From positions 98,256-157,936 of the forward strand of contig JAOAEQ010000002.1 in the NCBI GenBank assembly GCA_026416715.1: a DNA stretch of 59,681 nt, read 5' to 3'. The translations under genes and the position numbers were made by a program. Positions 11,165 through 59,681 of the stretch are shown here, in pieces. This DNA is from a bacterium (GTDB taxonomy: Bacteria > UBP4 > UBA4092 > JAOAEQ01). The notes under the pieces are model-generated. The model ran no database searches. It was not told where the DNA came from and saw only the letters and a program-made list of their open reading frames with translations. Positions within the stretch are counted from its first letter, which is position 1. Each line of letters opens with the position of its first letter.

Positions 11165-11261
11165 CCGAAAAGTACCTCTCCTGAACATATAAAGCCAAAA
11201 ACTAAATTATATACCTAATTGCAGCACTTATTTTTTTATAAATATTATTAGGATGAGAAAG

Positions 11262-11284
11262 CAAACTCCGGAGTCTGGAGTTTG
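11262..11284 (+). terminator. Weak hairpin after the HD gene
   Basis: CAAACTCC/GGAGTTTG arms with a 7-nt loop. There is no U-tract, so terminator function is uncertain. Confidence 0.25.
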
Positions 11285-11348
11285 GGTATGAGTTCGATTT
11301 CATTTGGTGGGATGGTGGGCTTGATAAATCAAGTCACTTCTTCTTAAG

Positions 11349-11394
11349 CAAAAAAGAAAAGGCGGTTCTAAACCATTATATTAGAACCGCCTTT
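11349..11394 (-). terminator. Rho-independent terminator of glnA
   Basis: Perfect 13-bp arms (11358-11370 and 11382-11394, AAAGGCGGTTCTA) with an 11-nt loop. Read on the minus strand, the stem is followed by a T-rich tract (CTTTTTTTGC pattern), as expected for termination just after the glnA stop. Confidence 0.85.
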
Positions 11395-11442
11395 GAGAGG
11401 ACAACAATAATTCGCTGAATTTGCGCTATTTGCGTTTACTTT

Positions 11443-12858: not shown

Positions 12859-12882
12859 AGAACCTCCTTTAAATGAGATAAA

Positions 12883-12930
12883 AATGCTAAAATCCGAATG
12901 TCACATTGACCTCATCTGAATTCTAGCATT
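12883..12930 (-). promoter_or_regulatory. Long hairpin with U-run in the glnA 5' leader
   Basis: Arms 12913-12930 and 12883-12900 can pair over 18 bp with one mismatch and a few G-U pairs, with a 12-nt loop. On the transcript it is followed directly by UUUUUAUC. It lies between promoter and ribosome site, a terminator-like (attenuator) position. Confidence 0.55.
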
Positions 12931-12956
12931 ATTAGATTAAATTGGTATAATAATAG

Positions 12957-12973
12957 AGCAATCGTAATGCCAA
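12957..12973 (-). promoter_or_regulatory. Sigma-54 (-24/-12) promoter for glnA
   Basis: Minus-strand TTGGCATTACGATTGCT matches TTGGCAC-N5-TTGCW, with GG and GC exactly 10 nt apart. The predicted start is near 12946, giving a leader of about 90 nt. glnA is a classic RpoN target. Confidence 0.7.
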
Positions 12974-13177
12974 CTATATTACTCAAATACGTTAAACGGT
13001 TAAATATTTGATAAAATTATAGTTACAATATACTTAGCCTAATCCTAAATTTTTTTAACTAGATAAAAACCTCACATATTAATACATTTTTGTTAGATAT
13101 ACAACAAAATTGTTTGAAAACTCGTCCTCTTGCTAACCAAAAACTTTCTGAATAAAAAATAGGGTTACAATCTAGTA

Positions 13178-14884: not shown

Positions 14885-15003
14885 AGAGTATCGAATATAG
14901 CGAATGCAACGAATTAAGAAGATTCGAAACTTTCGCTCTTCTTTTCAATCGGTAAATTTGTATATTTACTATATCGGAAAGTCCCAGATTTCGTCAATAG
15001 CCA

Positions 15004-15117
15004 CCCCAGACTAACTAGAGTCAACGAGCTGAGAGGTAAATAGCTTCAGCCATGGTTTGATAAGTCACCTCAAGGTATCAAACTCTTGACTCTAGTTTAT
15101 CCCATTAGATTCTGGGG
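15004..15117. repeat. Nested three-stem inverted repeat, possible structured RNA
   Basis: Outer arms 15004-15010/15111-15117 (CCCCAGA/TCTGGGG), middle arms 15015-15024/15086-15095 (CTAGAGTCAA/TTGACTCTAG), inner arms 15055-15062/15076-15083 (GTTTGATA/TATCAAAC). All pair perfectly in one nested order, compatible with a folded leader RNA of nadE (minus) or of the MFS gene (plus). Confidence 0.5.
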
Positions 15118-15227
15118 TCGGGTAGAATCGTTGGTAAACCTTCATTCAAACTTTTTCTTTACATCCCCAGCATTTCTCGATACACTATTTGACTAAATTC
15201 ATCCCTTGATTAACCAGAAACTGAATT

Positions 15228-15271
15228 CGGAATAAGGATGAACGAGCTCGAGCTCGTTCATCCTTGTTCCG
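15228..15271. repeat. 44-bp near-perfect palindrome
   Basis: 22-bp arms with one mismatch and no loop, centred on GAGCTC|GAGCTC at 15249/15250. It lies just upstream of the MFS gene in a divergent region, so it is not in a normal terminator position. Confidence 0.7.
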
Positions 15272-15332
15272 TTATAAAACTGGGTTCAAAATAAGTAAGG
15301 GAGAACAAATTCAAACGCTACTTTGGGGAAAT

Positions 15333-16514
15333 ATGGATGCGATAGCCAAACGGAACTATAATGCGCTGCGAACCTTCTATTTTTTCTTTTACATCAGCGT
15401 TGCTGCGGTGTCACCGTATATTAATCTCTATTTCAAAAAAATCGGGTTAACCGGAACGCAAATCGGAACGATTGCCGCTGCTGGACCGGTAGTTATTCTA
15501 TTCGCTCAACCGCTCTGGGGTTTTGTTGCGGATAAAACCAAACAGGCGCGCCAGCTGTTATCCTTCGCTATCCTCATGGCGATGATAACTAATATATTCT
15601 TCATATTCTTCCAGAATTTTGCTGCGTTAATTCTGGTTTCTATTATTTTCACGTTTTTCAGCACGCCAATTATTCCCCTTGCAGATACTGCTGCGCTCGA
15701 ATTCGTAGGCTCAAATAAATTAAGTTATGGGAAAATTCGACTCTGGGGTTCGGTCGGATTCGCTGCGTTCGTAACCTTAATTGGGAAAGTAACGCACAAT
15801 TTTGGATTGCTCTGGATATTTCCAATCTATGCGTTCGTAATGGTGATTAATGTTATCCTTTCATTTCGTATTCCCAAATATCAGTCACATTTAGAATATC
15901 GGTTCATCCATGGGTTAACAATTCTACGGAAAAACCATCGGTTCATTTTATTTCTCCTTGGCGTATTTCTTTTAATGGCAACCGGAACCGCAAACGTTGT
16001 CTATTTCGGGATATATATTGACCAGCTCGGTGGAAGTACTACCTTGCTCGGATTCGCTTGGATGATTGCTGCGATATCAGAAATCCCGATATTCCTTTAT
16101 GCAGATAAAATTTTTCAGAAAGTAAATCCGTTACAATGTTTAATCGCCGCAGCCGTTGCTTCTATGTTTCGCTGGTATGTATATACCCTAATAACCAATC
16201 CAATTCTGTTGATTTTCTTGCAACCATTGCATGCGGTTGGGTTTGGTTGCTATTATCTTGGAGCGATTCATTTCATTCGGCAGGAAAGCCCGCCTGGGTG
16301 GATGGCAACTGGACAAACGTTATTCTGGGCAGTAGCGTTCGGGTTATCCGCAATAACCGGTAGTTTTTTCGGCGGCGTGATTTATCAGAAGTATCATAGC
16401 GTCGCTGCAGTATATGCTATCGCAAGTATCGTTGCGTTCGTTTCCGCCATATTATTCCTGCTCGCAACGAAAATACATAAGCAGAATAATGATGTATTAA
16501 GAGAAACTGGTTAA
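15333..16514 (+). CDS. MFS transporter (MFS_1-like, 12 TM)
   Basis: About 393 aa of mostly hydrophobic sequence with some 12 membrane segments. The opening NYNALRTFYFFFY...SPYINLYFKKIGLTGTQIG and the loop GFVADKTKQ between TM2 and TM3 fit the MFS_1_like/nucleoside-symporter-like group. ATG at 15333 is preferred over an upstream TTG at 15264, which lies inside the palindrome; a GGGGA precedes the ATG closely. The transported substrate cannot be inferred. It stands alone, divergent from nadE. Confidence 0.85.
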   Translation: MDAIAKRNYNALRTFYFFFYISVAAVSPYINLYFKKIGLTGTQIGTIAAAGPVVILFAQPLWGFVADKTKQARQLLSFAILMAMITNIFFIFFQNFAALILVSIIFTFFSTPIIPLADTAALEFVGSNKLSYGKIRLWGSVGFAAFVTLIGKVTHNFGLLWIFPIYAFVMVINVILSFRIPKYQSHLEYRFIHGLTILRKNHRFILFLLGVFLLMATGTANVVYFGIYIDQLGGSTTLLGFAWMIAAISEIPIFLYADKIFQKVNPLQCLIAAAVASMFRWYVYTLITNPILLIFLQPLHAVGFGCYYLGAIHFIRQESPPGWMATGQTLFWAVAFGLSAITGSFFGGVIYQKYHSVAAVYAIASIVAFVSAILFLLATKIHKQNNDVLRETG

Positions 16515-16557
16515 AACTTTACATTCTCCATTCTTCAGATTATCAATTATTCATAGA

Positions 16558-17721
16558 TTACGATTCGTATAGGAGATATTTTGCACGTATCGGCAGAAAC
16601 TGTTTGATTTCCTTTTTCCATTCCGCAAGTAAATCAGATATAGAACGATGTTTATCAATCGCTAACCGGACTTTATCTGTTCCGAGCAATAAATCGAAGA
16701 AATAGTTCTCATATTTAATCCACTGGAATTTTTCAGGGAACATATCATGGATAGTTTTAACGACATACAACCCAATCATCGGCGCATTAAATGTATTCCG
16801 GTCAAGGATATGGGTCTGTATCCCGTTGCAGAGTTCGCCTTTATACTTGCTATAATGCGGTGTGAAATAGGTCGGGCGGAACCGAACCGCAGGTAAGTCA
16901 AGTTTGTTCAGTTCAGCAGCTAATGCTTCCGCATCAATCCACGGTGCACCAATCCATTCAAACGGTCGGGTCGTCCCTCGTCCTTCAGAAACATTGATCC
17001 CTTCGATAAAACATAGACCGGGAAAAACTAGTGCAGTATCAACGGTTGGCATATTCGGTGAAGGTGGAATAAACTGCAGACCAGTTTCATCGAACCATTG
17101 CGACCGACGCCATCCTACCATTTTAACCACGGTTAACTCAGCGTTAATCGGATTCTGCGGATTCGGCATCTCGTGGTTATAATATTCTGCTAATTCACCG
17201 AGCGTCATTCCGTGCCGTATCGGAATCGGGCTACTCCCGACGAAAGAAGAAAATCTCATATCCAGAATATTCCCTTCAACCGCAAGACCGGTTATCGGGT
17301 TCGGTCGATCGAGAACAAGCAGTTTCTTGCCATTTTCTTTCACCGCTTCCAATGCGAGCAGCAAGGTCGAAATGAACGTATAGAATCGCGCACCAGCATC
17401 TTGAATATCAAAAATGAGAATATCAACCTCGTTCAGCATTTCCGGAGACGGTTTCCGATTCGTTCCATACAGCGAATATACCGGCAATCCGGTTCTTGCA
17501 TCGGTATAACTATCTACCTTTTCCCCTTCTTTCGCTGCAGCTCGAAATCCATGTTCCGGCGCAAAAATGCTGGTAATTTTCATCCCAGCTTTTAACAATA
17601 AATCAATATTCAACTCAAGCGATTTATTTACTCCCGTCGTATTGGTTATAATTCCAACCCGACTTCCTTTAACCAGCTTCAGTTTCTTTTCTAAAAGAAC
17701 ATCTAATCCTGTTTTTACCAT
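16558..17721 (-). CDS. namZ: Exo-beta-N-acetylmuramidase (DUF1343/GH171, NamZ-like)
   Basis: 387 aa. The family features are clear: GIITNTTGVN (about 24-33), SIFAPEHGFR, YSLYGTNRKPSPEML, LIFDIQDAGARFYTFIST and LDRPNPITG, then GRGTTRPFEWIGAPW. DUF1343 proteins were shown to be exo-lytic N-acetylmuramidases (GH171) acting on peptidoglycan fragments. No signal peptide is visible, so a cytoplasmic wall-recycling role is more likely than secretion. GAAAGGA precedes the ATG. No partner hydrolase or MurNAc kinase lies nearby. Confidence 0.88.
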   Translation of the reverse strand: MVKTGLDVLLEKKLKLVKGSRVGIITNTTGVNKSLELNIDLLLKAGMKITSIFAPEHGFRAAAKEGEKVDSYTDARTGLPVYSLYGTNRKPSPEMLNEVDILIFDIQDAGARFYTFISTLLLALEAVKENGKKLLVLDRPNPITGLAVEGNILDMRFSSFVGSSPIPIRHGMTLGELAEYYNHEMPNPQNPINAELTVVKMVGWRRSQWFDETGLQFIPPSPNMPTVDTALVFPGLCFIEGINVSEGRGTTRPFEWIGAPWIDAEALAAELNKLDLPAVRFRPTYFTPHYSKYKGELCNGIQTHILDRNTFNAPMIGLYVVKTIHDMFPEKFQWIKYENYFFDLLLGTDKVRLAIDKHRSISDLLAEWKKEIKQFLPIRAKYLLYES

Positions 17722-17904
17722 AGATTTCCTTTCATAAAATATTAAGTTATAATGTCACATAAACACTTCATACATTTAAACTTGAAAGTATATGTTAAGT
17801 ATTGGGGCTCATTCGACATTGTGATTTTGCCATTAGATACTATCTATCTTGTCTTTTCTCGAGTCTACCTTTAATTCTTCTGTAATAATCTTTTCTAGCT
17901 TATG

Positions 17905-18225
17905 CTATTCTTCAACTATCTTCTGTCGGTCAAAATAGTCCTGATTCGCTATCAGCTGATTCTTTTGAGTCGCAATTTGCCCAGCTCGATTCCAACACCA
18001 AACGACCATAAAAAGGTAATAAGCAACCACTATCGTTCTCCCTGAAAACGGAGTAAGTAGGTCTATATAACCAAAGAAAACGGTCGATAGCAGGATAAGC
18101 GAAAGTAATAACCAAATTATTCCTGAAGTATACGCTCCAGCATAAATATGGCCTAGCCCTGGAACAATACTGAACCATTTAGCTAGCGTAGGCGATTTTA
18201 TTCTAGGTTTGAATCCTAAATTCAT
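17905..18225 (-). CDS. Small TM2-like membrane protein A
   Basis: 106 aa. A charged N-terminus leads into AKWFSIVPGLGHIYAGAY and about three hydrophobic segments, ending in a polar tail (ATQKNQLIANQDYFDRQ). The PGLGHIYAGAY signature resembles TM2/DUF5683-type small membrane proteins, whose function is unknown. It is clearly paralogous to 18394-18744 (same signature, VVW CW/CM, N-Q-YF-R tail). Confidence 0.65.
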   Translation of the reverse strand: MNLGFKPRIKSPTLAKWFSIVPGLGHIYAGAYTSGIIWLLLSLILLSTVFFGYIDLLTPFSGRTIVVAYYLFMVVWCWNRAGQIATQKNQLIANQDYFDRQKIVEE

Positions 18226-18393
18226 ATTCTATCAAGCTCTAAATCCAAAATCTAAATATCAAAACAATAACATCAAAAAAAACGAAAAGACTAAAAAACG
18301 AATAAACCCTATCTAAGATAAATAATGTTTTTGTCTCTTGGTGTCTTTGTGTCTTGGTGGTAGAATAGTTTTATTTTATACAATCTATCTTCG

Positions 18394-18744
18394 CTATTCG
18401 TCTTTTCCGAGCATTTTTTTCATTTCTTCAACTCGTTTGGTTTCATCAGCATATTTTCGGGATTCGAAATATTGTTGATTCGCCTGGGTCGCATTTCGTT
18501 CCGTGGCAAGCCGGGATGATTGAATCATGCACCAAACAACAATTAAGATATAGATAGAGACAATAATTAGTTTATTCCAGTCAGTAACTTTAATATTGGT
18601 ATATTCTACATAAACGAGGGAAAGCAATCCTTGACTGATGATTAACCAAATGAACCCTGCAGGATACGCTCCGACATAAATATGGCCAAGACCGGGGATG
18701 AAACTTAATATTCGGGCAACCGTCGTTGATTTTCGTTCATCCAT
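18394..18744 (-). CDS. Small TM2-like membrane protein B
   Basis: 116 aa, tandem paralogue of the preceding gene. It has ARILSFIPGLGHIYVGAYPAG, three hydrophobic segments and a cytoplasmic tail ending in a charged helix (ADETKRVEEMKKMLGKDE) that the shorter copy lacks. The 168-bp gap between the copies is AT-rich filler containing the phrase CTTGGTGTCTTTGTGTCTTG. Function unknown. Confidence 0.65.
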   Translation of the reverse strand: MDERKSTTVARILSFIPGLGHIYVGAYPAGFIWLIISQGLLSLVYVEYTNIKVTDWNKLIIVSIYILIVVWCMIQSSRLATERNATQANQQYFESRKYADETKRVEEMKKMLGKDE

Positions 18745-18793
18745 AAAATATAAAATATCTCCAGATTTTCCTATATTGTAGTGTTGTTGGCTA

Positions 18794-19702
18794 TTATAGC
18801 ATATAAGCTGGTGGGAGACGACGCCATTTCGCTGAAAGGGTAACTAATTGGTTAACTTCAGCTATTGTTGCCGGAGGGACGTTTGCTTGTTCAGCAATGC
18901 GGCTCGTATCCCAACGATGTTCAAGCCCGAATAGAATTATATCCAGTTGCGTATACGGTATGCCGAGTGCATATTCGTCAGTTATCCCTGGAAGTAAATC
19001 AGGACTAGGCGGTTTTTCAATAATTTCTTTAGGAACCTGTATATATTCAGCTATTTGACGAACTTGGGTTTTGTATAATCCCAGAATCGGCATAAAATCA
19101 GCAGCGCTATCCCCATATTGAACAAAGAAACCTGTCATCCATTCACTGCGATTTGCGGTACCGGCAACCAGATAATTCATTTTCTCTGCGTATAGATAAC
19201 ATACCACCATCCTTAGCCGATGTTTACTTCGATAAAACGCTATACTCTTATTCATTTCATCATTCGTTCCACCAGCGAGACTATAGACAAACGGAGATTG
19301 CTTGAATTCAGAGGTAAATTGGGTATGTTTCTTTTGCGCATATCGTTCCTGTATCTTGCGGGGAATACATAATGTCGGAGGGATTAAACGGTAGATACCG
19401 AGTTTGCGTAATGGCTGGGTTAACCGGATAATTTTATACGCAATACCGAGTTGAATAGCAAATTGTTTTGCGTGAACCACCGCAGAACGCGGAGTATGCC
19501 GTTCTGGTAAGATTAATGCGAAAACTCGAGTTTTCCCGAGACTGCGAACACATAATCCGGCTACAACAGCAGAATCTAATCCACCACTTAACCCAACAAC
19601 TACCCCAGCACGGTTAGCCTGTTGAACTTGCTGGTGAATAAACTGTTCTAATTGCGAACAAACCTCAGCAACATTTATCTGCAATGGAGAAAAATTATTC
19701 AC
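18794..19702 (-). CDS. Short NAD-synthetase-like ATP pyrophosphatase
   Basis: 302 aa, no glutaminase domain. The PP-loop GLSGGLDSAVV (about 37-47), KHRLRMV, GTANRSEWMTGFFVQYGDSAADFMPI and PPSPDLLPGITDEYALGIPY are the diagnostic NadE blocks. About 45 extra residues (roughly 95-155) sit before KHRLRM, which lengthens it beyond typical ammonia-dependent NadE. Start is GTG; there is no ATG before the PP-loop. It begins 33 nt after the radical SAM stop, so the two are co-transcribed. Because a complete nadE exists at 13178-14884, this copy may amidate or adenylate something other than deamido-NAD. Confidence 0.8.
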   Translation of the reverse strand: MNNFSPLQINVAEVCSQLEQFIHQQVQQANRAGVVVGLSGGLDSAVVAGLCVRSLGKTRVFALILPERHTPRSAVVHAKQFAIQLGIAYKIIRLTQPLRKLGIYRLIPPTLCIPRKIQERYAQKKHTQFTSEFKQSPFVYSLAGGTNDEMNKSIAFYRSKHRLRMVVCYLYAEKMNYLVAGTANRSEWMTGFFVQYGDSAADFMPILGLYKTQVRQIAEYIQVPKEIIEKPPSPDLLPGITDEYALGIPYTQLDIILFGLEHRWDTSRIAEQANVPPATIAEVNQLVTLSAKWRRLPPAYML

Positions 19703-19735
19703 ATTTCCAAGCTATCCTTCATCACTATTTTTCAA

Positions 19736-21082
19736 TCAATTTCTTCGTAGTTCGGGTTGAACATTTGCCTTTCTACACCGTTCCCAAGCGATGTTCGCTA
19801 ACGCACCATATTGATTCGCATATTCATCCAGCTGATGTCGTAACTGGGTAACTACAGTTTCCGCTCCAGGATGAGTCGGATACGCGCCGGTTTTTTCAAC
19901 AATTTCACGCAATACTTCCGGATTATCAATAATCATACACGGTCGATAATGATTATGTGAATACGGTTGCCGTTTCCGAATTTCTGCAAATAACGGCGAT
20001 TTCAAAACTTCAACCAATGATTTATTTTTAATATTATCCGTGGCAAAATGGACGAATACGCAGGGTTCAACATCACCATGCGAATTAATATGCAGATAGT
20101 TTCGCCCGCCGGCAATACACCCGCCAACCAGATTTCCATCATTCCAGAAATCAGCAAGCAGAATTGATTTCGTTTTACGTAGTTCAGCTAACCGATTAAT
20201 CCGATGAATGCGTTGTTCCGGCGTCGGCATAAGCTCTAATGCTGGCCGTTTTCCAATGGGAACATAATTGAAATACCACCCGAGAAAACACCCTTGCTTT
20301 TCGTAAAAATCGACAAATTCGTCGCTAACTACAAACTCGTTGTTCTCTCGAGTTACAGTGCAAGAGAAGCCGAATAAAACCCCTGCTTTGCGAAGTTCCT
20401 GCATAGCATTAATAATTTTCTGGAATGTACCTTTTCCACGTCGGTCATCGGTTTCCTTCTCGAACCCTTCAACGCTAATCGCTGGTAAAACATTTCCTAA
20501 CTTTGCTAATTTTTCTGCCATCGTTTGGTCAATTAGTGTCCCATTAGTATAAACTTGGAAAAACATATCATTATGCGCCTGAAACATTTCCAAAATATGT
20601 TGCCAGTAGAATGGTTCTCCGCCAGATATAGTTATGAAATAGATACCGAGATCTTTCGCTTCTTTAAGGATACGGTCAACCACTGTATAATCTAAATCAT
20701 CTTCTTTCGTATACATACCGGCATAGCAACCATAACATCCGAGATTACACCGCATTGTCGGGCTGATAACGAAAAAGAACGGAATCCGAATTCCGAGTTC
20801 TTGTTCTCGTTGTCGGCGAATCGAATACCCTTTCAGTAAAGCATTAATAAAAAAAGTTTCTATTGCTTTATCCCGATAGGTTGGCGCAGCGAGCGTGAGA
20901 TGTTTTTTTGCAAACAGAACTAGCCGCTGCATAAACTCGCGACTTTCCGGAACCGGGAATGAACGGAGAAACGGTCGTAGAAAATATAGATATGCTTGGT
21001 CTGGTAGGTAAGGTAGTAATCGAAGTGTTTGAAATGCAACTTCAGCAGTCATTACCTCTTTCAATCGGCTAGCTTGTAACAT
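19736..21082 (-). CDS. Radical SAM protein with SPASM-like C-terminus
   Basis: 448 aa. An N-terminal helical region (1-95) precedes the radical SAM core with CNLGCYGC (C112, C116, C119), the SAM-binding ISGGEPF and a barrel typical of peptide/cofactor-modifying enzymes. The C-terminal third has further cysteines in GGCIAGG, VEPCVF and YRPCMI, suggesting one auxiliary cluster as in SPASM/twitch domains. GAGGAGGG lies about 10 nt before the ATG. It is first gene of an operon with the short NadE-like enzyme behind a consensus promoter. Substrate unknown; no small peptide gene is visible next to it. Confidence 0.8.
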   Translation of the reverse strand: MLQASRLKEVMTAEVAFQTLRLLPYLPDQAYLYFLRPFLRSFPVPESREFMQRLVLFAKKHLTLAAPTYRDKAIETFFINALLKGYSIRRQREQELGIRIPFFFVISPTMRCNLGCYGCYAGMYTKEDDLDYTVVDRILKEAKDLGIYFITISGGEPFYWQHILEMFQAHNDMFFQVYTNGTLIDQTMAEKLAKLGNVLPAISVEGFEKETDDRRGKGTFQKIINAMQELRKAGVLFGFSCTVTRENNEFVVSDEFVDFYEKQGCFLGWYFNYVPIGKRPALELMPTPEQRIHRINRLAELRKTKSILLADFWNDGNLVGGCIAGGRNYLHINSHGDVEPCVFVHFATDNIKNKSLVEVLKSPLFAEIRKRQPYSHNHYRPCMIIDNPEVLREIVEKTGAYPTHPGAETVVTQLRHQLDEYANQYGALANIAWERCRKANVQPELRRN

Positions 21083-46259: not shown

Positions 46260-47582
46260 TCATTTCCGAGACCGTAGGGATTGTATTTTTGATTTATGAG
46301 GCTTCCGGAGGTATTCAGTCATTCCTTTCATCGCGCAGAATTCACCGCACATCGTACAGACATCAGATTCGGTTGGCGGACTTTCCTCCCGCATTGTTTT
46401 CGCTCGTTTCGGATCAATCGCATATTCGAGCATCTTATCCCAATCGAGCGATTTCCGCGCTTTTGCCATCTGGATATCCCACTCGAGCGCACCGGGAAGT
46501 CCTTTAGCGATATCCGCAGCATGCGCAGCTATCCGGGTAACGATAACTCCTTCGTATACCTCTTCGACTGTGGGCAACCGTAAATGTTCGGATTTGGTAA
46601 CGTAACATAAGAAATCAGCACCTGCTGATGCTGCTATCGCTCCGCCAATTGCGGCAGTGATATGGTCATATCCGGGTGCAACATCGGTTACTAGCGGTCC
46701 AAGAACATAAAACGGTGCTTCTTTACATAGCTGTTTTTCAATCTGCATATTCATTCCAATCTGATTCAACGGAACATGTCCCGGTCCTTCTATCATCACC
46801 TGAACACCGGCATCCCACGCTCGTTGGGTTAGTTCACCCAAGATAATCAACTCTTCAATTTGTGCACGGTCAGTAGCATCAGCTAAACAACCGGGACGAA
46901 ATCCATCACCTAAACTAAGCGTAATATCATATTTTCGCGCTATTTCAAGAAGCCGATCATAATGTTCATAAAACGGATTCTCTTGTTCATTATATATCAT
47001 CCATTCGAGAGTTAATGCACCACCGCGACTGACTACATCGGTTATTCGACCCTGTTCTTGCATCGCGTTCAATGTACGCCAGCATACCCCGCAATGGATG
47101 GTCATGAAATCTACTCCCTGTTCCGCTTGATTAACCACTTCAGCAAACAGTTCGTCTTCTGTGAGTTCAACAATAGCTCGTTGTGATTGTTTCGCCGTAA
47201 CTGCCGCACCATATATCGGAACTGTACCTACCGGAACCGGGCTATGTTCAATAACTTTTGACCGAATTAGTAAAATATCCCCGCCGGTGCTTAAATCCAT
47301 TACCGTATCAGTTTTCGCTTCTAGTGCCGCGTTGAGTTTACGCAGTTCGTTCTCAACCTGCGGAACATCCGGCGATGAACCGATATTCGCATTCACTTTA
47401 GTTCTGGTACCTTTCCCAATAGCACAAGGATGTTTCGGCGAATGTTTCGGATTATACGGAAGAACGATTTTACCGATCGCGATCTGGTCGCATAACCAAT
47501 TAGTATCGAGATTCTCTAGTTTTGCAACCAGCTGCATTTCGGAAGTAACAATTTTTTTTCTAGCACTTTCAAGTTGTGTCAT
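46260..47582 (-). CDS. thiC: Phosphomethylpyrimidine synthase
   Basis: About 440 aa, the shorter anaerobe-type ThiC without the N-terminal extension of E. coli. Visible are MTQLESARKK, VNANIGSS, DLSTGGD, IHCGVCW, GDGFRPGCLADA, EGPGHVPLNQI, PLVTDVAPGYDHITAAIGGA and the C-terminal cluster CTMCGEFCAMK. The cluster spacing is CX2CX3C, one residue shorter than the CX2CX4C of well-studied ThiC. Start ATG at 47582 rather than an upstream GTG. Makes HMP-P from AIR by radical chemistry. Downstream of thiE in one operon. Confidence 0.95.
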   Translation of the reverse strand: MTQLESARKKIVTSEMQLVAKLENLDTNWLCDQIAIGKIVLPYNPKHSPKHPCAIGKGTRTKVNANIGSSPDVPQVENELRKLNAALEAKTDTVMDLSTGGDILLIRSKVIEHSPVPVGTVPIYGAAVTAKQSQRAIVELTEDELFAEVVNQAEQGVDFMTIHCGVCWRTLNAMQEQGRITDVVSRGGALTLEWMIYNEQENPFYEHYDRLLEIARKYDITLSLGDGFRPGCLADATDRAQIEELIILGELTQRAWDAGVQVMIEGPGHVPLNQIGMNMQIEKQLCKEAPFYVLGPLVTDVAPGYDHITAAIGGAIAASAGADFLCYVTKSEHLRLPTVEEVYEGVIVTRIAAHAADIAKGLPGALEWDIQMAKARKSLDWDKMLEYAIDPKRAKTMREESPPTESDVCTMCGEFCAMKGMTEYLRKPHKSKIQSLRSRK

Positions 47583-47653
47583 ATATTCAGTCACGACGGA
47601 GCACACGCATGACCCAAAAATAGTATCGGAATTTAATCTGTGGTAATCTGCAA

Positions 47654-49526: not shown

Positions 49527-51761
49527 CTACCCGCATTTGGAGAACCCACACGCTCGGCAAATAATACATCCTTCCTGATACTCAAGGAGCATACCACATT
49601 CCGGACATTGGGGACAAATGCCAACTAACGTTTTCTGCACTGTTTCTTTCTTTACTGGTTCAACGGTAACCGGATGATTTCGTTCAAGATAATGCTGCAT
49701 AGCTTTGCCGATAGCATCCGCACAGGAAAGAGTAACACTTCCATTCTCCCAGAACGGTAACGGACATCGAATACCTTTCAGATGTTTAATAATGAGTTCA
49801 GGGTCAACCCCGGCTTGCAGGGCTAATGAAATCAATCTACCAGTCGCTTCTGACTGTGATGCCATACATCCACCGGATTTGCCCATCGCCGTGAATACTT
49901 CACAGAGCCCGTGTTCGTCTTCATTGACAGTAACATAGAGATTACCACAGCCGGTTTTGATTTTTTCGGTAAACCCCCGACTTATTGACGGACGCGGTCG
50001 CGGCGTTACCCGATGTTTTCGTATCGAAGTTGAGTCATTCTGTTTCCCGATATTAATAACTTGTTCTTCTCGACTTCCATGCCGATAAACGGTTACCCCT
50101 TTGCATCCAAGTTCATACGCCAGCCAATATACTTTTGCAACATCATCTGGAGTAGCGCTATTGGGAAAGTTAACCGTTTTACTCACCGCATTATCGACAT
50201 ACTTCTGAAACGCTGCTTGCATTTTCAAATGCCACTCCGGAGCGATATCGTGTGCAGTAACAAAAATTTTCTTTACATCATCCGGAACCTCTGCTATTCC
50301 TTGGACTGAACCGAGTTCGGCGATTTTCTGCATCAACGCTTCGGAGTAGAACCCGCGTTTTTTAGCAATATTTTCAAACAGCGGATTCACTTCGGTTAAG
50401 TCAACGTTGCCCAACCCGGTTTTACGGATATACGATATTGCAAATAACGGTTCTATCCCACTCGAACACCCAGCAATAATTCCTATACTTCCGGTTGGTG
50501 CAATGGTCGTGGTTGTCGCGTTCCGTAATTTTTTCGCTCCTGGTTTATCGTAGATACTTCCTTTGAAATTCGGGAATGCACCTCGTTCTTTTGCTAGTTC
50601 CTGTGACGTTTTTTTCGCTTCTTTTGCAATAAATGACATGATTTCTTCAGCTAGTTTTAATGCCGTATCAGAATTATATGGAACTGATAATTGAATTAAC
50701 ATATCGGCAAACCCCATAACTCCAAGCCCGATTTTCCGATTCCCTTTTGTCATTTGTTCAATCATTGGGATTGGGTACCGATTGATGTCAATAACATTAT
50801 CTAAAAATCGAACCGCAAGATGAACTACAGACTTTAGTTTGTTCCAGTCAATGCTTACGGTATCTTTAGATACTTTCAACATTTTCGCTAAATTAATCGA
50901 CCCAAGATTACAGGATTCATAGGGAAGCAACGGTTGTTCCCCGCACGGATTTGTACTCTCAATTTCACCAAGTTTTGGCGTCGGATTATCGCGGTTTAAC
51001 CGGTCGAGAAAAACGATTCCCGGTTCTCCATTTTTCCAAGCAAGATTAACAATCTGGTCGAAAACATCTTTTGCTTTTAACCTGGCTACAGGTAGTTTGG
51101 TTCGCGGATTGATTAATTCGTATTCTTCGTTCTTTTTCACTGCCTCCATAAATTTTTCGGTTATCCCAACCGAAATATTAAAATTATTTAATTTCGTTGA
51201 ATCCTGTTTAGCGGTGATAAATTTCTGGATATCCGGATGGTCAACCCGCAGAATGCCCATATTCGCACCACGACGAGTTCCTCCTTGTTTAATAGCTTCA
51301 GTAGCCGCATTGAACACTTCCATAAACGAAATTGGACCGCTGGAAACACCATGGGTAGATTTAACCATATCTCCTGCTGGTCGCAGTCGGGAAAATGAAA
51401 ACCCGGTTCCGCCACCGCTCTGATGAATCAATGCCGTATTTTTAATCGTTTCGAAAATACTCTCCATCGAATCATCAATCGGCAGAACGAAACAAGCGGA
51501 AAGTTGCCCTAGCGGTCGACCAGCATTCATCAGGGTAGGACTATTTGGCAAAAATTCGAGCGCGGTCATTATCCGATAAAATTCTTTTTCCAGTTGCTTA
51601 ATTTCACGCGCTGACTTTTTATAATTTTTTTCTGCGCTAGCGATCGTCTTTGCTACCCGCTGAAACATCTCTTCAGGAGTTTCAATTGGTACTCCTTGGT
51701 CATTTTTTTGGAGATATCGCTTTTCTAAAACAATCTGAGCATTTTTTGATAAGGATAGCAT
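49527..51761 (-). CDS. nrdJ: Class II (adenosylcobalamin-dependent) ribonucleotide reductase
   Basis: About 744 aa. It shows [24 protein letters not shown] (active-site Cys), [57 protein letters not shown] (Cys-x-Glu radical site), [13 protein letters not shown] and a C-terminal TSCPD-like part with CPQCPECG...[13 protein letters not shown] zinc/redox cysteines. It reduces ribonucleotides without oxygen. No NrdB partner. The frame extends 30 codons upstream to TTG, but [17 protein letters not shown] at 51761 is the family-like start. Regulated through NrdR boxes about 390 bp upstream. Confidence 0.95.
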
Positions 51762-51916
51762 AGGAAGAATAAAGCCGATTCTGAATTTCGAATTTCTCCT
51801 AAAGACAGCAGAAACACCATTGGTTTTTTTAATAGTAGACAATAATAGCAATATAATTGCTGTTTGAAAATAAACTTAATTATTTACTACCGAAAAAAAT
51901 CGTAATCCTAATATTT

Positions 51917-52171: not shown

Positions 52172-52199
52172 ATTATACTCCACAATATATAGTTGTCAA
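52172..52199 (-). promoter_or_regulatory. Consensus promoter of nrdJ
   Basis: Minus-strand TTGACA (52194-52199), 16-bp spacer, TATAAT (52172-52177), both perfect. NrdR box 2 fills the spacer and box 1 covers the start. Confidence 0.75.
52180..52195. promoter_or_regulatory. NrdR box 2
   Basis: CCACAATATATAGTTG keeps the CaATATaTaG core. Box-to-box distance is 32 bp (three helical turns), the usual NrdR tandem spacing. Confidence 0.7.
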
Positions 52200-52371: not shown

Positions 52372-53304
52372 ATGATGATAAAGCTGCTTGTAGCAGAATT
52401 CGCCCGATGGATTTATTGGCATCCGTGGCGATTTTTTATTCAACTAATTCCGACTTCATGGAGTTATCGGTTAGCGGTTTTTGCTGGGCGATGCCATTAT
52501 TGGTTTGCCATCGGTAAACGCCAACGGGTTCTGAATGGACTGAAATATTTTTTTCCCGATGCGAACGAATCAATATTACTTCGCATCGTTAAAAATACAT
52601 TTAGAAATTATGCATTAAATTCGATAGAAATTTTTCTATATCCAAAATTAGATTCTAAAAAAATCAACCGTATGGTACATTATATCGGATTAGAAAAACT
52701 CGATGCTGCACTCCACCAGCATAGAGGTGTTATTCTAGCGCATGGTCATTTTGGAAATGAAGAATTTCTGATGCCAGCGATCGGGTATCAAGGATATAAA
52801 CTCCATCAAATCGCTAGTCGGTGGAACCCACCGGCCGTCCAAGACACGTTTTACGGCAGAATAATCAACGCAATTCGAAATAGAGCGTTCCGATATCGAA
52901 TCGGATATCGTGAACAATTACCGGTAACGTTCCATTACATTGATAAACCGTTACGTGGTGCCGTCCGTGCAATTCAGAACAATGAAGTGGTCTTGTTCGC
53001 TGCAGATGGTCGAGAATCGGAACAATGGCTTGAACTTGATTTCCTTGGCCAACGAGCTCGATTTTCTCCTGGGCTAGCGCGATTTGCAAAATTAACCGGC
53101 GCGATAGTGCTGCCAGTATTTCTCATTCGCGAAAAAGATTTTCGGCATCGGCTGATTATCGAAGACCAAATGGAAATGAACGATAAAGATGATACAACGA
53201 TTATGAAGGAATATATTGCACGATTAGAGAAATATATTCGCCAGTATCCGTGTCATTATGCTAAAGTATATTGGATTGAACCTTCATTTTTTATTCAGCC
53301 ATAG
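52372..53304 (+). CDS. LpxL/HtrB-type lysophospholipid/lipid A acyltransferase 1
   Basis: 310 aa. N-terminal membrane anchor region, then the catalytic motif HGHFGNEE with H126-x4-E131 intact, LFAADGRESEQW and RFAKLTGAIVLPVFLIREKD. The family adds a secondary acyl chain to lipid A-like molecules at the inner membrane. First gene of the plus-strand envelope cluster; only 17 nt separate it from the radical SAM gene. Confidence 0.85.
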   Translation: MMIKLLVAEFARWIYWHPWRFFIQLIPTSWSYRLAVFAGRCHYWFAIGKRQRVLNGLKYFFPDANESILLRIVKNTFRNYALNSIEIFLYPKLDSKKINRMVHYIGLEKLDAALHQHRGVILAHGHFGNEEFLMPAIGYQGYKLHQIASRWNPPAVQDTFYGRIINAIRNRAFRYRIGYREQLPVTFHYIDKPLRGAVRAIQNNEVVLFAADGRESEQWLELDFLGQRARFSPGLARFAKLTGAIVLPVFLIREKDFRHRLIIEDQMEMNDKDDTTIMKEYIARLEKYIRQYPCHYAKVYWIEPSFFIQP

Positions 53305-53321
53305 GATGTTACCATTTTTTT

Positions 53322-54674
53322 ATGAAAATTCTCCTTGTTCAAGCACATACTGGTAGAAAAGATTTTGGACTAGTCTATCCGATAGGATTGGCATATTTAG
53401 CGGCAGCGCTAACCACACCACCAAACCAATATGAGGTGAAAATTTACGATCCTAATCTCGAGTCTGACCCATACGGGACATTGTCGGAAATCATTCTTTC
53501 ATTCCATCCCGATATTGTTGGGATTTCGCAACGAAACATTGATACTACCAATCTCCGCGACTTATATGTGCATTGGAAAACATTACAACCTACCGTTCAG
53601 CTCATTCGTCGTTTGATTCCTGAAGCAATTACCGTCGTTGGCGGTTCCGGATTTTCACTGTTTGCAGAACAAATTATGCGCCAAGTTCCTGAAGTCGATT
53701 TTGGAGTATTCCGTGAAGCAGAAGAATCGTTTCCTGAATTGCTCGCGAATTTATCTGACCCTGAGAAAGTTCCCGGGATTTTTTACCGGAAGGATGGTAA
53801 AGTACTCTTTAGCGGCCCACGCGGACTACCCCAATTCGATGCACTTCCAATTCCGCGACATGATTTAACGCAAATAGAACGATATTTTGACCGTTTACCG
53901 GCAATCGGAGTGCAAAGTAAACGGGGTTGTCCGTTGAAATGTATCTATTGCAGTTATCCGCATTTAACCGGTATGGGAGTTCGACTCCGTTCACCACAAT
54001 CTATTGTCGATGAAATTGAGTTGTTAATAAATCAATATCATGTTCCAACGTATACCTTTGTCGACGATATTTTTAATGTACCAAAAGAACATGCGGAAGC
54101 GATCTGCCAAGAGCTTATTTCGCGAAAACTACATTCGGTTCCCTGGTCAGCCTTTTTTGATATGAAAGATATGGACGAATCGTTTATTCGATTAGCGCTC
54201 AAAGCAGGATGTAATCATTTCTTTTTTTCACCAGACGCTATTACGGACACCGGATTAAATGTTCTCCAGAAAAATTTTACGGCGCAAGATATTCGAAGAA
54301 CGGCAAAATTATGCCATCAAATTCCGGGCGTGCATTGTGGATATTCGTTCTTTTTAAATTATCCGGGGATAACGATTGGTGAATATTTACAAACGCTATG
54401 GTTTTTTCTAAAGGAAAATCTTTTGCTCGGACTACGCCGTAAAGGCGGAGTCCACGTCTCCTGGATTCGTATTGAACCGCATACTCGATTACACCAGATT
54501 GCTATTGAAGAAAAAATAATTTCGCCTACGGCTGATTTGTTACCTAAAACTGAATCAGAATTAAAATCGCTATTTTATATCAGTCCGAACTATAAACTGC
54601 TGAATTTTCTAACCAATCGCATGCTTGATATGATTGATTTAACCATAGGTAAACTAATAGGGAGAAAAGTTTAA
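53322..54674 (+). CDS. B12-binding-domain radical SAM protein
   Basis: 450 aa. A Rossmann-like cobalamin-binding part (1-135; MKILLVQAHT, YPIGLAYLAAAL, PDIVGIS, VVGGSGFSLF, GVFREAEESFPEL) lacks the base-on DxHxxG histidine. The radical SAM barrel follows with RGCPLKCIYC (C203, C207, C210), FVDDIFN and a C-terminal helical region. Such proteins methylate or rearrange unactivated carbons. Placement between two lipid acyltransferases with 17- and 41-nt gaps suggests a lipid or acyl-chain substrate (inference). Confidence 0.85.
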   Translation: MKILLVQAHTGRKDFGLVYPIGLAYLAAALTTPPNQYEVKIYDPNLESDPYGTLSEIILSFHPDIVGISQRNIDTTNLRDLYVHWKTLQPTVQLIRRLIPEAITVVGGSGFSLFAEQIMRQVPEVDFGVFREAEESFPELLANLSDPEKVPGIFYRKDGKVLFSGPRGLPQFDALPIPRHDLTQIERYFDRLPAIGVQSKRGCPLKCIYCSYPHLTGMGVRLRSPQSIVDEIELLINQYHVPTYTFVDDIFNVPKEHAEAICQELISRKLHSVPWSAFFDMKDMDESFIRLALKAGCNHFFFSPDAITDTGLNVLQKNFTAQDIRRTAKLCHQIPGVHCGYSFFLNYPGITIGEYLQTLWFFLKENLLLGLRRKGGVHVSWIRIEPHTRLHQIAIEEKIISPTADLLPKTESELKSLFYISPNYKLLNFLTNRMLDMIDLTIGKLIGRKV

Positions 54675-54715
54675 CATCCGATTACGGAGATAAAAAACCG
54701 ATTATAACAATTTCT

Positions 54716-55660
54716 ATGGTCGTTCAAGAAAGTGTTTTTCGTGATATCGCCCGATTGTTGGTTTGGTATCCTATCCGCTGGATAACAAAACTTATTCCGA
54801 TATCGTGGAACATCTATCTACTTCGTGAATTGGGAAAAATCCATGCGCTTATATCCCAGGGGCGAAAGAAACATCTCCAGCGACAATACACCTTAATTTT
54901 TAATTCCGAAATAACAGGAATATCGGTTAAGCATTTTATTAATGAATATCTGACAACACATTATTTAAATCAACTCTCTATTTTCTTTTTTCCAAGGTTA
55001 AATAAGCATAATATTGGGCGTTATCATTCATTTGTTGGTCTAGAACATCTTGAAGCTGCACTAAAAAAAAATCATGGTGTGATTCTACTCCATGGACATT
55101 TTGGTCCTGCTCAATTAACCCTAGTCGCACTCGGTTTAGCTGGATATCAGGTAATTCAGATTGGGTTTCCGACAGATAAAGGACTAAGCTGGATTGGTCG
55201 CAAGGTTGCATTTCGACTTCGACTTAAAGAGGAAGCTAAAATCCCGGCACGGATTATTGCGGCAGATAAGTTTCTCCGTCCTGTGGTAGAAGGGTTACGA
55301 AAAAATGCTATAGTTATGACCAGTGGCGATGGTGCGGGAGGCGGTACGTTTATTGGGAAATTTATTTCCGCTTCTTTTTTGGGAAAACAGCTACCATTTG
55401 CGGTTGGTGGGATTCAGTTAGCGGAGCGAACTGGCGCTTCGGTGCTACCGATTTTTTTAATCCCGAAAACCGCAATCCACTGGGAAACTATTATTTATCC
55501 TGCTTTGCCGGAAACCGGGTCGGTTGCAGAACGACTTGAACCATTCATCCGGCAGTTAGAAATTTATGTTCGGCGATATCCTGGATTATGGCGATTTTGG
55601 GATGAACTGGATAAACGAATGGAGTATGCCCAGCACTTGCTGAAGCAGAAAATGAAATAA
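54716..55660 (+). CDS. LpxL/HtrB-type acyltransferase-like protein 2, catalytic Glu replaced by Gln
   Basis: 314 aa, paralogous to 52372-53304 along its length. The motif reads HGHFGPAQ: H128 is kept but the acidic residue four positions on is Gln133. The second block is VMTSGDGAGGG instead of LFAADGRE, and IQLAERTGASVLPIFLIPK follows. Either a divergent acyltransferase group or an inactive partner of copy 1. Third gene of the cluster. Confidence 0.8.
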   Translation: MVVQESVFRDIARLLVWYPIRWITKLIPISWNIYLLRELGKIHALISQGRKKHLQRQYTLIFNSEITGISVKHFINEYLTTHYLNQLSIFFFPRLNKHNIGRYHSFVGLEHLEAALKKNHGVILLHGHFGPAQLTLVALGLAGYQVIQIGFPTDKGLSWIGRKVAFRLRLKEEAKIPARIIAADKFLRPVVEGLRKNAIVMTSGDGAGGGTFIGKFISASFLGKQLPFAVGGIQLAERTGASVLPIFLIPKTAIHWETIIYPALPETGSVAERLEPFIRQLEIYVRRYPGLWRFWDELDKRMEYAQHLLKQKMK

Positions 55661-55741: not shown

Positions 55742-57223
55742 ATGGTTACTGCAAAAACAGAATTATCTGCGCTTCGATTTAGTTTTCCGTTGCGTTGGTG
55801 GATTACGATTATAATCATTGAATGTACACTTGCTATTATCGTGAGTACTATCCCATCACTAACGCAGCCAGGACTAGTCGTAGTGGGATTGATTCTCGGG
55901 CTGTATTTCATTATTGCACTTATTCGACCACGGATTGCACTTGGTATTTTAGCCTTCTGTTTTCCGTTTTATAATTTTGTTATCAATATCGTGTATCAGT
56001 CACATACCTATAAAATTCTCTTATTATTTCCAACAATATTTGGCTCACTGTTATTCCTAGCAGTATTACTCCGATTTAGCGCTAAATTACAGCAGTATGC
56101 TGCTCCGCAAGTTTTTCTGTTGGTTCCGATAGGGATGTTGATTGTGTGGAGTATCCTATCATCAGCCTGGACGGAAAAACCATTCTCTGCGTGGTATAGC
56201 GGACTAAATTTACTGATTTCATTTATGGTCATATACTGTATATTCCAACTTATCCAAACAGAATCGCAGTTATTCCGATTTTATCTCGTTGTTATTCTTG
56301 GAGGATTGATTACTGCAGCCGCAATTATTCTATCTACGTTCTTTTCAACCGACCGAACTTATATTTACCCGCTGATTACTACCGATAATATTCAGATTTT
56401 TGAAAGCACCTTTTTCTATGTGATGCGCCAAGGAATGAAACGAGCAATGGGATTCGGAACCTATAATCAGATGTCATTGCTAATGACGGTCCATCTATTT
56501 CTTGCTGGAGTATTATTAATATCTCAACGACGGTGGACTACAAAAACGATGCTTATTATATCAATGTTCTATATGCTATATGCGCAATTACTGACTAAAA
56601 CCAGAGCGCCGATAGTCGGTATGTTACTCGGGGCATTTCTTACCATATATTTACTTTGTAAACGAATTACGACGTGGAACAGAAAACAGTTCTGGTTCAG
56701 TATGGTAATTATGATTATTTTTATTACGATGTTATTCTTATCCATAGTAAGTCATCTGGAAAAAGGATTAACCCGGTTTACTGCAGCGGTAATTTCTGAC
56801 GTTGAAGTTAAAGATAGTTCGTGGACACTGCGTATGACATGGTGGCAAGAGAGTATCTATCAGTTTTTCGCTACCTATGGTCTTGGAGTAGGAGCGGGAA
56901 ATGTTTCCGAGTATCTTTATCAAAACGCACCTCATCCGCATAATACTTATATCCATCTTATGGTCGAACTCGGAATTTTCGGAACAATTATTTTGGCAAC
57001 GCTTTTGATTTCGATAGTTAAAAATACGATTTATGCGTTACGCCGGCATGATTTATCACCAGAATTAACCAAGACAGTGGCGATTATTGCCGGTGCATTA
57101 GTTGCAGATGGGTTTGCATTAGGATTCGAACATGATTATTATTGGATTCCAACGTGGATATATTTAGCGATACTCTTGCTTCCTATCAATCTTGCATTGA
57201 AGACAAAAGAAGAAGGTAAATGA
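55742..57223 (+). CDS. O-antigen ligase/polymerase family protein (WaaL/Wzy-like)
   Basis: 493 aa with about twelve membrane helices, one large periplasmic loop (about 325-405) and the Wzy_C hallmark ASHPHNTYIHLMVELGIFG-like HPHNTYIHL near residue 398 after GLGVGAGN. Transfers or polymerises lipid-linked glycan onto a core or chain. With the GT9 gene and acyltransferases it fits surface glycolipid assembly. Confidence 0.85.
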   Translation: MVTAKTELSALRFSFPLRWWITIIIIECTLAIIVSTIPSLTQPGLVVVGLILGLYFIIALIRPRIALGILAFCFPFYNFVINIVYQSHTYKILLLFPTIFGSLLFLAVLLRFSAKLQQYAAPQVFLLVPIGMLIVWSILSSAWTEKPFSAWYSGLNLLISFMVIYCIFQLIQTESQLFRFYLVVILGGLITAAAIILSTFFSTDRTYIYPLITTDNIQIFESTFFYVMRQGMKRAMGFGTYNQMSLLMTVHLFLAGVLLISQRRWTTKTMLIISMFYMLYAQLLTKTRAPIVGMLLGAFLTIYLLCKRITTWNRKQFWFSMVIMIIFITMLFLSIVSHLEKGLTRFTAAVISDVEVKDSSWTLRMTWWQESIYQFFATYGLGVGAGNVSEYLYQNAPHPHNTYIHLMVELGIFGTIILATLLISIVKNTIYALRRHDLSPELTKTVAIIAGALVADGFALGFEHDYYWIPTWIYLAILLLPINLALKTKEEGK

Positions 57224-57350: not shown

Positions 57351-58535
57351 ATGCATTATAAGATTATCAATCGGAAAAAGCTGATGGCGGTTAAATTCGC
57401 AGATTCAGTTATCGGTCCGGTGGTTCGGATTTGGAATAAGATTTCCGGACAAAACAATTCTCAGCTATCCCCGCAAGATTTTGCAAATATCAAAAAAATT
57501 CTCATTCTCCGCACTGCATATACCGGCGATGTAATTATGACGCTCCCTGTATTAACACCGTTACGAAGCGCGTTTCCGAACGCAGAACTGGTTTTTTTAA
57601 CTAGTCATAGCGCAGCGCCATTGTTAGAACATCATCCAGCAGTAGACCGGGTGATTAAATATGATGCGTTCTGGTTTTACCCTCAACCAAACTCAGTTGC
57701 ATTAAAAAAATACCGAGAGATTATCCAACAACTCCGCGCAGAACGATTCGAGGTGGTCTTCGATTTCCGCGGGGATATCCGTGATATTTATTTTTTAGCG
57801 TATCGAAGTCGGGCGAAACATCGAATTAGTTACGGTTCCGGCGGAGGCGCTTATTGGCTGACACAAATTATCCCGTTACAAGAAACAAAACACCGAGTTC
57901 AGTTTCATCTAGATATTTTGCGAGCATTAAAAATCTCTGTTTCTCATGAAATGCCGAAAATATATTTAACCGAAACGGAAAAGAAACAAGCATTAACCCG
58001 ATTGCAATCTTTTGGCTTTAATGTGGAACGAGATGTTCTCATTGGAATTCATCCCGGAGCGCGGATGCCGTTAAAACGCTGGCCAATTGCTCGTTATGCA
58101 GAGTTAATTGCACGAGTTACTCAAACACATTTAGGGAAAGTAGTTCTATTCACTGCCCCTGAGATACCGAATACCGAATGGGAAAATAAGGGAATGAAAA
58201 CATGGCAGCGCCATTCTCAAGTCGCTATTCTCTCCGATTTAACGCTTCGAGAATTAGCAGCAATTATTCATTATTGCCGAATTTTAATCTGCAACGATAG
58301 CGCCCCGATGCATCTCGCTGCTGCAGTTGGCACGAAATGTTTAGCGATATTCGGTCCTTCCAAATCGTATGAAACCGCTCCTTACGGATCGAATCATTTC
58401 GTTATAGAAAAACCGTATCCCTGTCGAACAACTTGCGATGAATCAACCTGCAAGTATAAAATATATAACGACTGCTTAAAATCAATTAGGGTAGACGACG
58501 TCGAACAATCATTAGCGAATATACTCAACGCTTAA
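57351..58535 (+). CDS. GT9-family glycosyltransferase (ADP-heptosyltransferase type)
   Basis: 394 aa with KKILILRTAYTGDVIMTLPVLTPLRSAFP, VVFDFRGDIRD, IGIHPGARMPLKRWPIARYAELI and NDSAPMHLAAAVGTKCLAIFGPS, the GT9 (WaaC/WaaF/RfaF) signature. A 45-residue N-terminal extension precedes the first domain. C-terminal cysteines (PCRTTCDESTCKYKIYNDC) are common in this subgroup. Likely adds heptose or a related sugar to the LPS core. Last gene before a strong terminator. Confidence 0.9.
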   Translation: MHYKIINRKKLMAVKFADSVIGPVVRIWNKISGQNNSQLSPQDFANIKKILILRTAYTGDVIMTLPVLTPLRSAFPNAELVFLTSHSAAPLLEHHPAVDRVIKYDAFWFYPQPNSVALKKYREIIQQLRAERFEVVFDFRGDIRDIYFLAYRSRAKHRISYGSGGGAYWLTQIIPLQETKHRVQFHLDILRALKISVSHEMPKIYLTETEKKQALTRLQSFGFNVERDVLIGIHPGARMPLKRWPIARYAELIARVTQTHLGKVVLFTAPEIPNTEWENKGMKTWQRHSQVAILSDLTLRELAAIIHYCRILICNDSAPMHLAAAVGTKCLAIFGPSKSYETAPYGSNHFVIEKPYPCRTTCDESTCKYKIYNDCLKSIRVDDVEQSLANILNA

Positions 58536-58821: not shown

Positions 58822-59681
58822 ATGTCTTTTAGAATCAATATATTACGTTGTAATAAAGGTTCGGAATTAAAAGGCTTATTAACGGAAGCATTACGAGCAT
58901 ATCTTGATATTTTCCCGACATCGAAATCTGCTAGAATCCTACTCAAGCCGAATTTAAATAGTAATATGAATGCCTTGACCGGTAATACGACTGATTTACG
59001 ACTGCTATCAGCAGTAATTTGGTTTCTGCAGAAAGAAGGATATAAACATATCGCTATCGGAGAAGGGACAAATTCTGGGTTTTATCGAAATAAAATCAAT
59101 GTAATCACGCGGCTTATGGTAGATAAACTAGCGGAACGTTATAAGGTCGACGTAATCGATTTAAATTATGCTGAAGGGATTCCAGTTGAACTAGAGAACG
59201 GCGTAATTGCACAGGTTGGAAAACCGTGCCGTGAAGCGGATTTTCTGATTAATCTACCCAAATTCAAGACCCATTTTGAAGTCGGTATGACCGGTGCACT
59301 AAAAAATCTTATGGGTTGTCTTGTGGGACAGGAGAATAAAAAGAAAATGCATCAGTCGTTGGTTAAAAACATCATTAAACTGAATCAACAGGTTCAACCG
59401 CATCTCCATATTCTCGATGGAATGATTGCTATGGAAGGAACAGGTCCAACTCGCGGAACGCCGGTTAATCTCGGTCTGATTCTTATCAGTACGGATCCGT
59501 ATCTACTGGATTTAGCTTGTGCATATATTGCTGGGTTTATTGATGTATCAACTTCTGATAACGTCAAGCAAGGGCAAGTACCAACTTGGTTAAGGTTACT
59601 CTATATGGCGGAACAAGTTGGATTGATTACTCCGGAACATCATCGAGTACTGTTGCACCTACCAATTAAAGAATACATTCA
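58822..59681 (+). CDS. DUF362 domain protein, 3' end outside window
   Basis: Open for 286 codons to the window edge. ILLKPNLNSNMN, GNTTDLRLLSAVIWFLQKEGY, IAIGEGTNSGFYRN, EADFLINLPKFKTHFEVGMTGALKNLMGCLVG and DGMIAMEGTGPTRG, then STDPYLLDLACAYIAGF are the DUF362 pattern. Family members are uncharacterised, often ferredoxin-fused; any C-terminal domain would be outside the window. It starts its own unit after a terminator. Confidence 0.85.
   Translation, partial: MSFRINILRCNKGSELKGLLTEALRAYLDIFPTSKSARILLKPNLNSNMNALTGNTTDLRLLSAVIWFLQKEGYKHIAIGEGTNSGFYRNKINVITRLMVDKLAERYKVDVIDLNYAEGIPVELENGVIAQVGKPCREADFLINLPKFKTHFEVGMTGALKNLMGCLVGQENKKKMHQSLVKNIIKLNQQVQPHLHILDGMIAMEGTGPTRGTPVNLGLILISTDPYLLDLACAYIAGFIDVSTSDNVKQGQVPTWLRLLYMAEQVGLITPEHHRVLLHLPIKEYI

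Follow-up and report, generated by a model that had tools for sequence, protein, structure and literature searches.

What does a B12-type radical SAM gene do between two genes for lipid A-type acyltransferases? We analyzed such an arrangement in the window, by which we mean the whole 59,681-nucleotide stretch of contig JAOAEQ010000002.1 (assembly GCA_026416715.1) studied here. The explanation that we favor, with a probability of roughly 0.6, is that the cassette begins a pathway whose product is not ordinary lipid A but an acylated polysaccharide or glycolipid of the cell surface, tailored by B12-dependent radical chemistry. Behind this reading, we observed the gene content, the conservation of clustering, the co-occurrence of genes, the state of the motifs, and the structural family; substrate, reaction, and product are what we infer from these.

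Three genes open a surface-sugar gene cluster in the window, all on the plus strand: LpxL-A (52372 to 53304; 310 amino acids), rSAM1 (53322 to 54674; 450 amino acids), and LpxL-B (54716 to 55660; 314 amino acids). The open reading frame coordinates agree exactly with the preliminary description: a B12-type radical SAM gene between two LpxL-like genes of the same strand, separated from them by 17 and 41 nucleotides. LpxL-A is an acyltransferase of the LPLAT fold and LpxL-B a divergent LPLAT; they match PF03279 (Lip_A_acyltrans) with 120 and 54.4 bits, respectively, against a cut-off of 22.3. rSAM1 combines a B12-binding domain (PF02310, 53.8 bits against 32.1) with a Radical_SAM domain (PF04055, 42 against 29.5). 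Domain matches also confirm the two genes said to follow, both on the plus strand: an O-antigen ligase/polymerase-like membrane protein (55742 to 57223; Wzy_C, 57.6 against 31.7) and a GT9 glycosyltransferase of the heptosyltransferase family (57351 to 58535; 114.4 against 22), which scores under all heptosyltransferase equivalog cut-offs. The operon-like run extends to a plus-strand DUF362 gene (58822 to 59679), identified by its open reading frame and a domain match and incomplete because the window ends where the 157,936-base contig ends; full-length homologs in two other genomes (G064 and G043) have 4Fe-4S motifs at the C terminus. Genes for an acyl carrier protein or for fatty-acid synthesis are absent from the cassette, and scanning the window for Rfam families and tRNAs returned no matches. 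Since the window genome (G000; 2.96 Mb in 64 contigs) has only six PF03279 genes, two of them around a single gene are very unlikely to have met by chance.

The six starts from LpxL-A to DUF362 (52372, 53322, 54716, 55742, 57351, and 58822) have no obvious Shine-Dalgarno sequence and are preceded by A+T-rich bases. A perfect TTGACA-N16-TATAAT element lies on the minus strand at 52172 to 52199, between the cassette and a ribonucleotide-reductase-like gene (49527 to 51851), and is directed at the latter.

LpxL-A and LpxL-B, which are 31% identical to each other, resemble LpxL and LpxM in their PF03279 domain, N-terminal helix, and catalytic His. Unlike LpxL and LpxM, they score far under the family cut-offs: against the lipid A family TIGR02207, LpxL-A reaches 53.2 and LpxL-B 31.9 bits (cut-off, 297.8), and LpxL-A likewise has 70.5 bits against the PatA equivalog (cut-off, 209). 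They do not group with canonical LpxL copies on a tree of 41 proteins, where LpxL-B sequences form a clade of nine (support, 100/100), the A and C types join (95/92), and 16 canonical proteins stand apart (100/96). The HX4E motif is intact in LpxL-A (HFGNEE), while LpxL-B has HX4Q (HFGPAQ). At the Glu position, Q, H, or L replaces E in all LpxL-B members, A/C-type members vary and have E only in the window genome and its nearest relative in the sample (G001), and nearly all canonical members retain HX4E. A B12-type radical SAM gene was found near 10 of 24 proteins without this Glu versus 1 of 17 with it (P = 0.014), in a sample that is biased to such loci and includes some short ones.

Could loss of the Glu mean that LpxL-B is a dead enzyme? 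We rejected this idea because VexE, the acyltransferase that makes the lipid anchor of the Vi capsule, works with a His-Asp dyad and is active with a Tyr at the HX4D/E acid position (PMC9597891), and because the equivalent of PatA E200 is aligned in LpxL-B. Every A, B, and C row of a MAFFT alignment has the catalytic His and an Asp at the E200 position, and His128 and Asp205 of LpxL-B are invariant in six sequences. PatA is the best PDB relative of LpxL-A and the nearest structure to the predicted LpxL-B model (pLDDT 84; TM up to 0.82), ahead of LpxM; sequence identity to PatA is ∼16%. VexE and PatA have in common with the cassette enzymes the LPLAT fold and a His with a distal acidic residue, and the genes for VexE, like those here, lie beside polysaccharide export genes. 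Unlike VexE, the cassette enzymes have no TPR domain; unlike both VexE and PatA, they occur as two or three paralogs per genome and are paired with B12-radical SAM genes. Given the conserved His and Asp, the VexE precedent, and the PatA-like model, LpxL-A and LpxL-B are most likely active PatA/VexE-like acyltransferases.

On a Methylophaga pinxianii plasmid (9001 to 11031), an LpxL-B-like stretch overlaps the start of an annotated ELM1/GtrOC1 glycosyltransferase gene, beside GT9 and O-antigen ligase genes.

We searched 290 sampled genomes and found rSAM1 relatives (E ≤ 1e-60) in 13 of them. Within three of these, from two other phyla (G205 and G064 belong to one, G043 to the other), rSAM1 is clustered with LpxL-like, GT9, DUF362, and GT2 genes, a second B12-type radical SAM gene (rSAM2), and an HpnJ-like radical SAM gene (rSAM3), with GT9 in the position orthologous to that in the window. 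The G205 cluster reads LpxL-A, rSAM2, rSAM1, LpxL-B, hydrolase, GT9, DUF362, rSAM3, and GT2; upstream are genes for a phosphodiesterase, a ligase, a chain-length protein, an inosose dehydrogenase, another phosphodiesterase, and an acyl-AMP ligase. The inosose dehydrogenase scores 504 bits for NF041097, above the cut-off of 450. The G064 cluster runs from flippase, APS kinase, rSAM2, rSAM1, and LpxL-B to hydrolase, GT9, DUF362, rSAM3, and GT2, with phosphodiesterases, a further B12-type radical SAM gene, a second LpxL-like gene, and a second rSAM2 ∼10 kb upstream. G043 has a chain-length protein, flippase, phosphodiesterase, LpxL-like gene, two rSAM2 genes, rSAM1, a GH39-like gene, ligase, a PMT-like gene, GT9, DUF362, rSAM3, and GT2. 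Other arrangements occur in G149, of a different family and genus again (GT9, LpxL-like, rSAM3, and GT2, with DUF362 divergent), in G316 (two rSAM2 copies adjoining LpxL-B), and in G220 and G078 (a row made up of two B12-type radical SAM genes, one more radical SAM gene, and an LpxL-like gene). The rSAM2 family is expanded in some genomes, with 12 matches in G220 and 10 in G043, several of them in tandem.

The preliminary description had proposed that a conserved LpxL-radical SAM-LpxL order be sought. The exact triplet is specific to the window genome among those sampled, and what recurs in distant lineages is the cluster, as LpxL-rSAM2-rSAM1-LpxL (G205), rSAM2-rSAM1-LpxL-B (G064), or LpxL-rSAM2-rSAM2-rSAM1 (G043). 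The window genome and G001 are the only two representatives of their phylum in the sample. G001 contains LpxL-A, -B, and -C and rSAM1, rSAM2, and rSAM3, all scattered. The window genome itself yielded no rSAM2 match. Its rSAM3 gene is found at the end of contig C9 with a GT2-sugar-phosphate-transferase fusion and a phosphodiesterase, and LpxL-C, a third relative, on contig C19 with flippase, chain-length, DUF362, and export genes. Contig C9 and that of the window (C2) may be neighbors; a search for an overlap of their ends found none.

Co-occurrence also links LpxL-B with rSAM1. Using an LpxL-B profile over the same 290 genomes and >390 bits to define a strict ortholog, we found rSAM1 in 6 of 7 genomes with LpxL-B versus 7 of 283 others (Fisher's exact test, P = 1.5e-8, with genomes that are not independent and a profile built from genomes first picked for rSAM1). 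Since those seven genomes have rSAM1 without LpxL-B, rSAM1 is not confined to the LpxL-B pathway.

Do these genes modify lipid A itself? LpxL-A and LpxL-B would then add secondary acyl chains, which rSAM1 would methylate or rearrange. PF03279 membership of both enzymes, the HX4E retained in LpxL-A, and the LPS-type GT9 and Wzy_C ligase genes fit this alternative, as does an LpxC match (344.6 bits) suggesting that the genome makes lipid A. We nevertheless consider it unlikely: beyond the low equivalog scores and the tree position outside the canonical HX4E clade (100/96), the genome has three canonical HX4E acyltransferases elsewhere, on contigs C18, C13, and C10, so that the cassette is not needed for lipid A; G220, a genome only 86% complete, has LpxL-B and rSAM1 without an LpxC match; and the related clusters contain Wzx, Wzz, Wza, and ligase genes for surface-glycan assembly and exopolysaccharide export. 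Thus, of the lipid A or glycolipid pathway first proposed, the association of acyltransferase with B12-type radical SAM gene stands, recurring across phyla in a glycolipid or surface-glycan context, and the assignment to lipid A in particular is not supported.

A polyketide-like or free secreted glycolipid, with LpxL-like enzymes esterifying an unusual lipid tailored by B12-radical SAM enzymes and no link to a polysaccharide, seems to us a little more doubtful still. Contig C70 of G099 (10558 to 19630) has three divergent LpxL-like genes in tandem, in which the HX4E motif is altered (HFGPVN, HFGFAH, and HFSSAN); next to them is a gene that reads as polyketide-synthase-like from its sequence, and another that reads as P450-like is not far off. 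The G205 acyl-AMP ligase points the same way; against this alternative, there is no polyketide synthase gene near the window cassette, and the Wzx, Wzz, Wza, and ligase genes of the related clusters suit a polysaccharide.

What chemistry could rSAM1 contribute? Its N-terminal B12 domain and CxxxCxxC core (CPLKCIYC) place it among the cobalamin-dependent radical SAM enzymes. This class includes both methylases and ring-forming or ring-contracting enzymes, so the reaction of rSAM1 is not readable from its sequence. The preliminary description had asked whether rSAM1 belongs to a family with a known, unrelated substrate; no such family claims it outright. Its best named family is BzaD (TIGR04385; 310.3 bits, cut-off 450), and the ladderane-associated rSAM_ladder_B12 (TIGR04072) gives 222.5 bits (cut-off, 360); ten homologs tested are likewise under both cut-offs. 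rSAM1 shares with these families full-length homology and the arrangement of an N-terminal B12 domain and radical SAM core; unlike them, it has no bza or fatty-acid-synthesis neighbors. That rSAM1 is a BzaD-type small-molecule enzyme (benzimidazole C-methylation for cobamides) merely located among envelope genes is very improbable, even with BzaD as its best family and a ThiC gene 6 kb away, because it is 140 bits short of the cut-off, adjoins LpxL, Wzy_C, GT9, and DUF362 rather than any bza gene, and, in three other genomes, belongs to clusters that also hold LpxL-like, GT9, and DUF362 genes. The nearby gene (46260 to 47606) passes as ThiC (654 bits against 410) and fails as BzaB (585 against 700), and we rejected a cobamide operon on that ground.

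The predicted rSAM1 model (pLDDT 90) is nearest in fold to TsrM, OxsB, TokK, AprD4, and CysS, and TsrM, a cobalamin-dependent tryptophan C2-methylase, is its best solved relative by fold and profile. In TsrM, Arg69 shields the lower face of cobalamin and Glu273 prevents SAM coordination to the cluster (PMC8992657, PMC13331322). Arg71 of rSAM1 aligns with Arg69 and is invariant in 12 sequences; unlike in TsrM, the Glu273 position is Ile250 in rSAM1 and Ile, Val, or Leu in 12 of 12 aligned homologs, so that the signature of the non-radical TsrM type is absent. With the Arg kept and the Glu missing, rSAM1 should be capable of radical chemistry, and the alignment suggests that its cobalamin is weakly ligated. 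We consider C-methylation the most likely reaction (about 60%), over ring formation or rearrangement (about 40%).

We rejected an apparent truncation of the G043 rSAM1 as an artefact of start-codon choice; the open frame has 446 amino acids. A single-sequence contig search gave one weak match, 26% identical, in Magnetospirillum, and plasmid searches found distant homologs only. Among these, rSAM1 homologs (24 to 33% identity) on Solidesulfovibrio carbinolicus plasmid pDCAR1 and a Lawsonia intracellularis plasmid lie amid glycosyltransferase and sugar-modification genes.

In the acylated surface polysaccharide or glycolipid pathway that we favor, GT9 and a partner GT2/sugar-phosphate transferase would build the sugar. 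LpxL-A and LpxL-B would use His and the distal Asp to activate a sugar hydroxyl and take the acyl group from an acyl carrier, rSAM1 would tailor one carbon of the surface molecule, perhaps with electrons from the Fe-S protein DUF362, and flippase, chain-length protein, export protein, and Wzy_C ligase would assemble and export the product. The methyl-branched or rearranged acyl chains suggested earlier are possible, and so, with about equal likelihood, is modification of a sugar or cyclitol. The partner rSAM3 resembles HpnJ (461.2 bits in the window genome, 412.9 in G205) and adjoins a GT2 gene, the neighbor one would expect if it modifies a sugar; unlike HpnJ, it is under the cut-off of 577.6 and belongs to a cluster for surface glycan that includes GT9 and DUF362. 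As HpnJ acts on sugar, forming the cyclitol ether of hopanoids (PMC12583986), sugar tailoring is as plausible as acyl-chain tailoring.

Related clusters also resemble XrtA/PEP-CTERM exopolysaccharide clusters in their export and chain-length proteins and acyl-AMP ligase; unlike those, their proteins are under XrtA-specific cut-offs, and B12-radical SAM and LpxL genes are, to our knowledge, not part of that gene set. The cassette joins known kinds of system, LPLAT-based glycolipid anchoring and cobalamin-dependent radical SAM tailoring, in a combination that is new as far as we found: the open-access literature yielded no description of a surface-glycan system combining LpxL-like and B12-radical SAM enzymes. 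Outside antibiotics, hopanoids, and cofactors, we know of very few cobalamin-dependent radical SAM enzymes whose substrate has been assigned; for LPLATs beyond lipid A and phospholipids, the representatives known to us are PatA and VexE. From a conserved cluster with both kinds of enzyme, one would predict that a surface lipid carries chemistry so far unseen in such molecules, and the cluster names candidate genes and residues: His128 and Asp205 of LpxL-B, and Arg71 and the CxxxCxxC cysteines of rSAM1. More tentatively, and short of an even chance, these loci could represent a widespread, undescribed class of lipid-modified surface glycans in several poorly sampled phyla, in which several divergent LPLATs would each be teamed with a B12-radical SAM enzyme, adding acyl groups as well as moieties that are C-methylated, carbocyclic, or rearranged.

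Elsewhere in the window, a second NAD-synthase-like gene (302 amino acids) lies beside a radical SAM gene on the minus strand (18794 to 21082), the latter with a SPASM-type resemblance well under the cut-off. A full NAD synthase is also present (13178 to 14884), and the second gene may encode an enzyme that amidates in partnership with the radical SAM protein.
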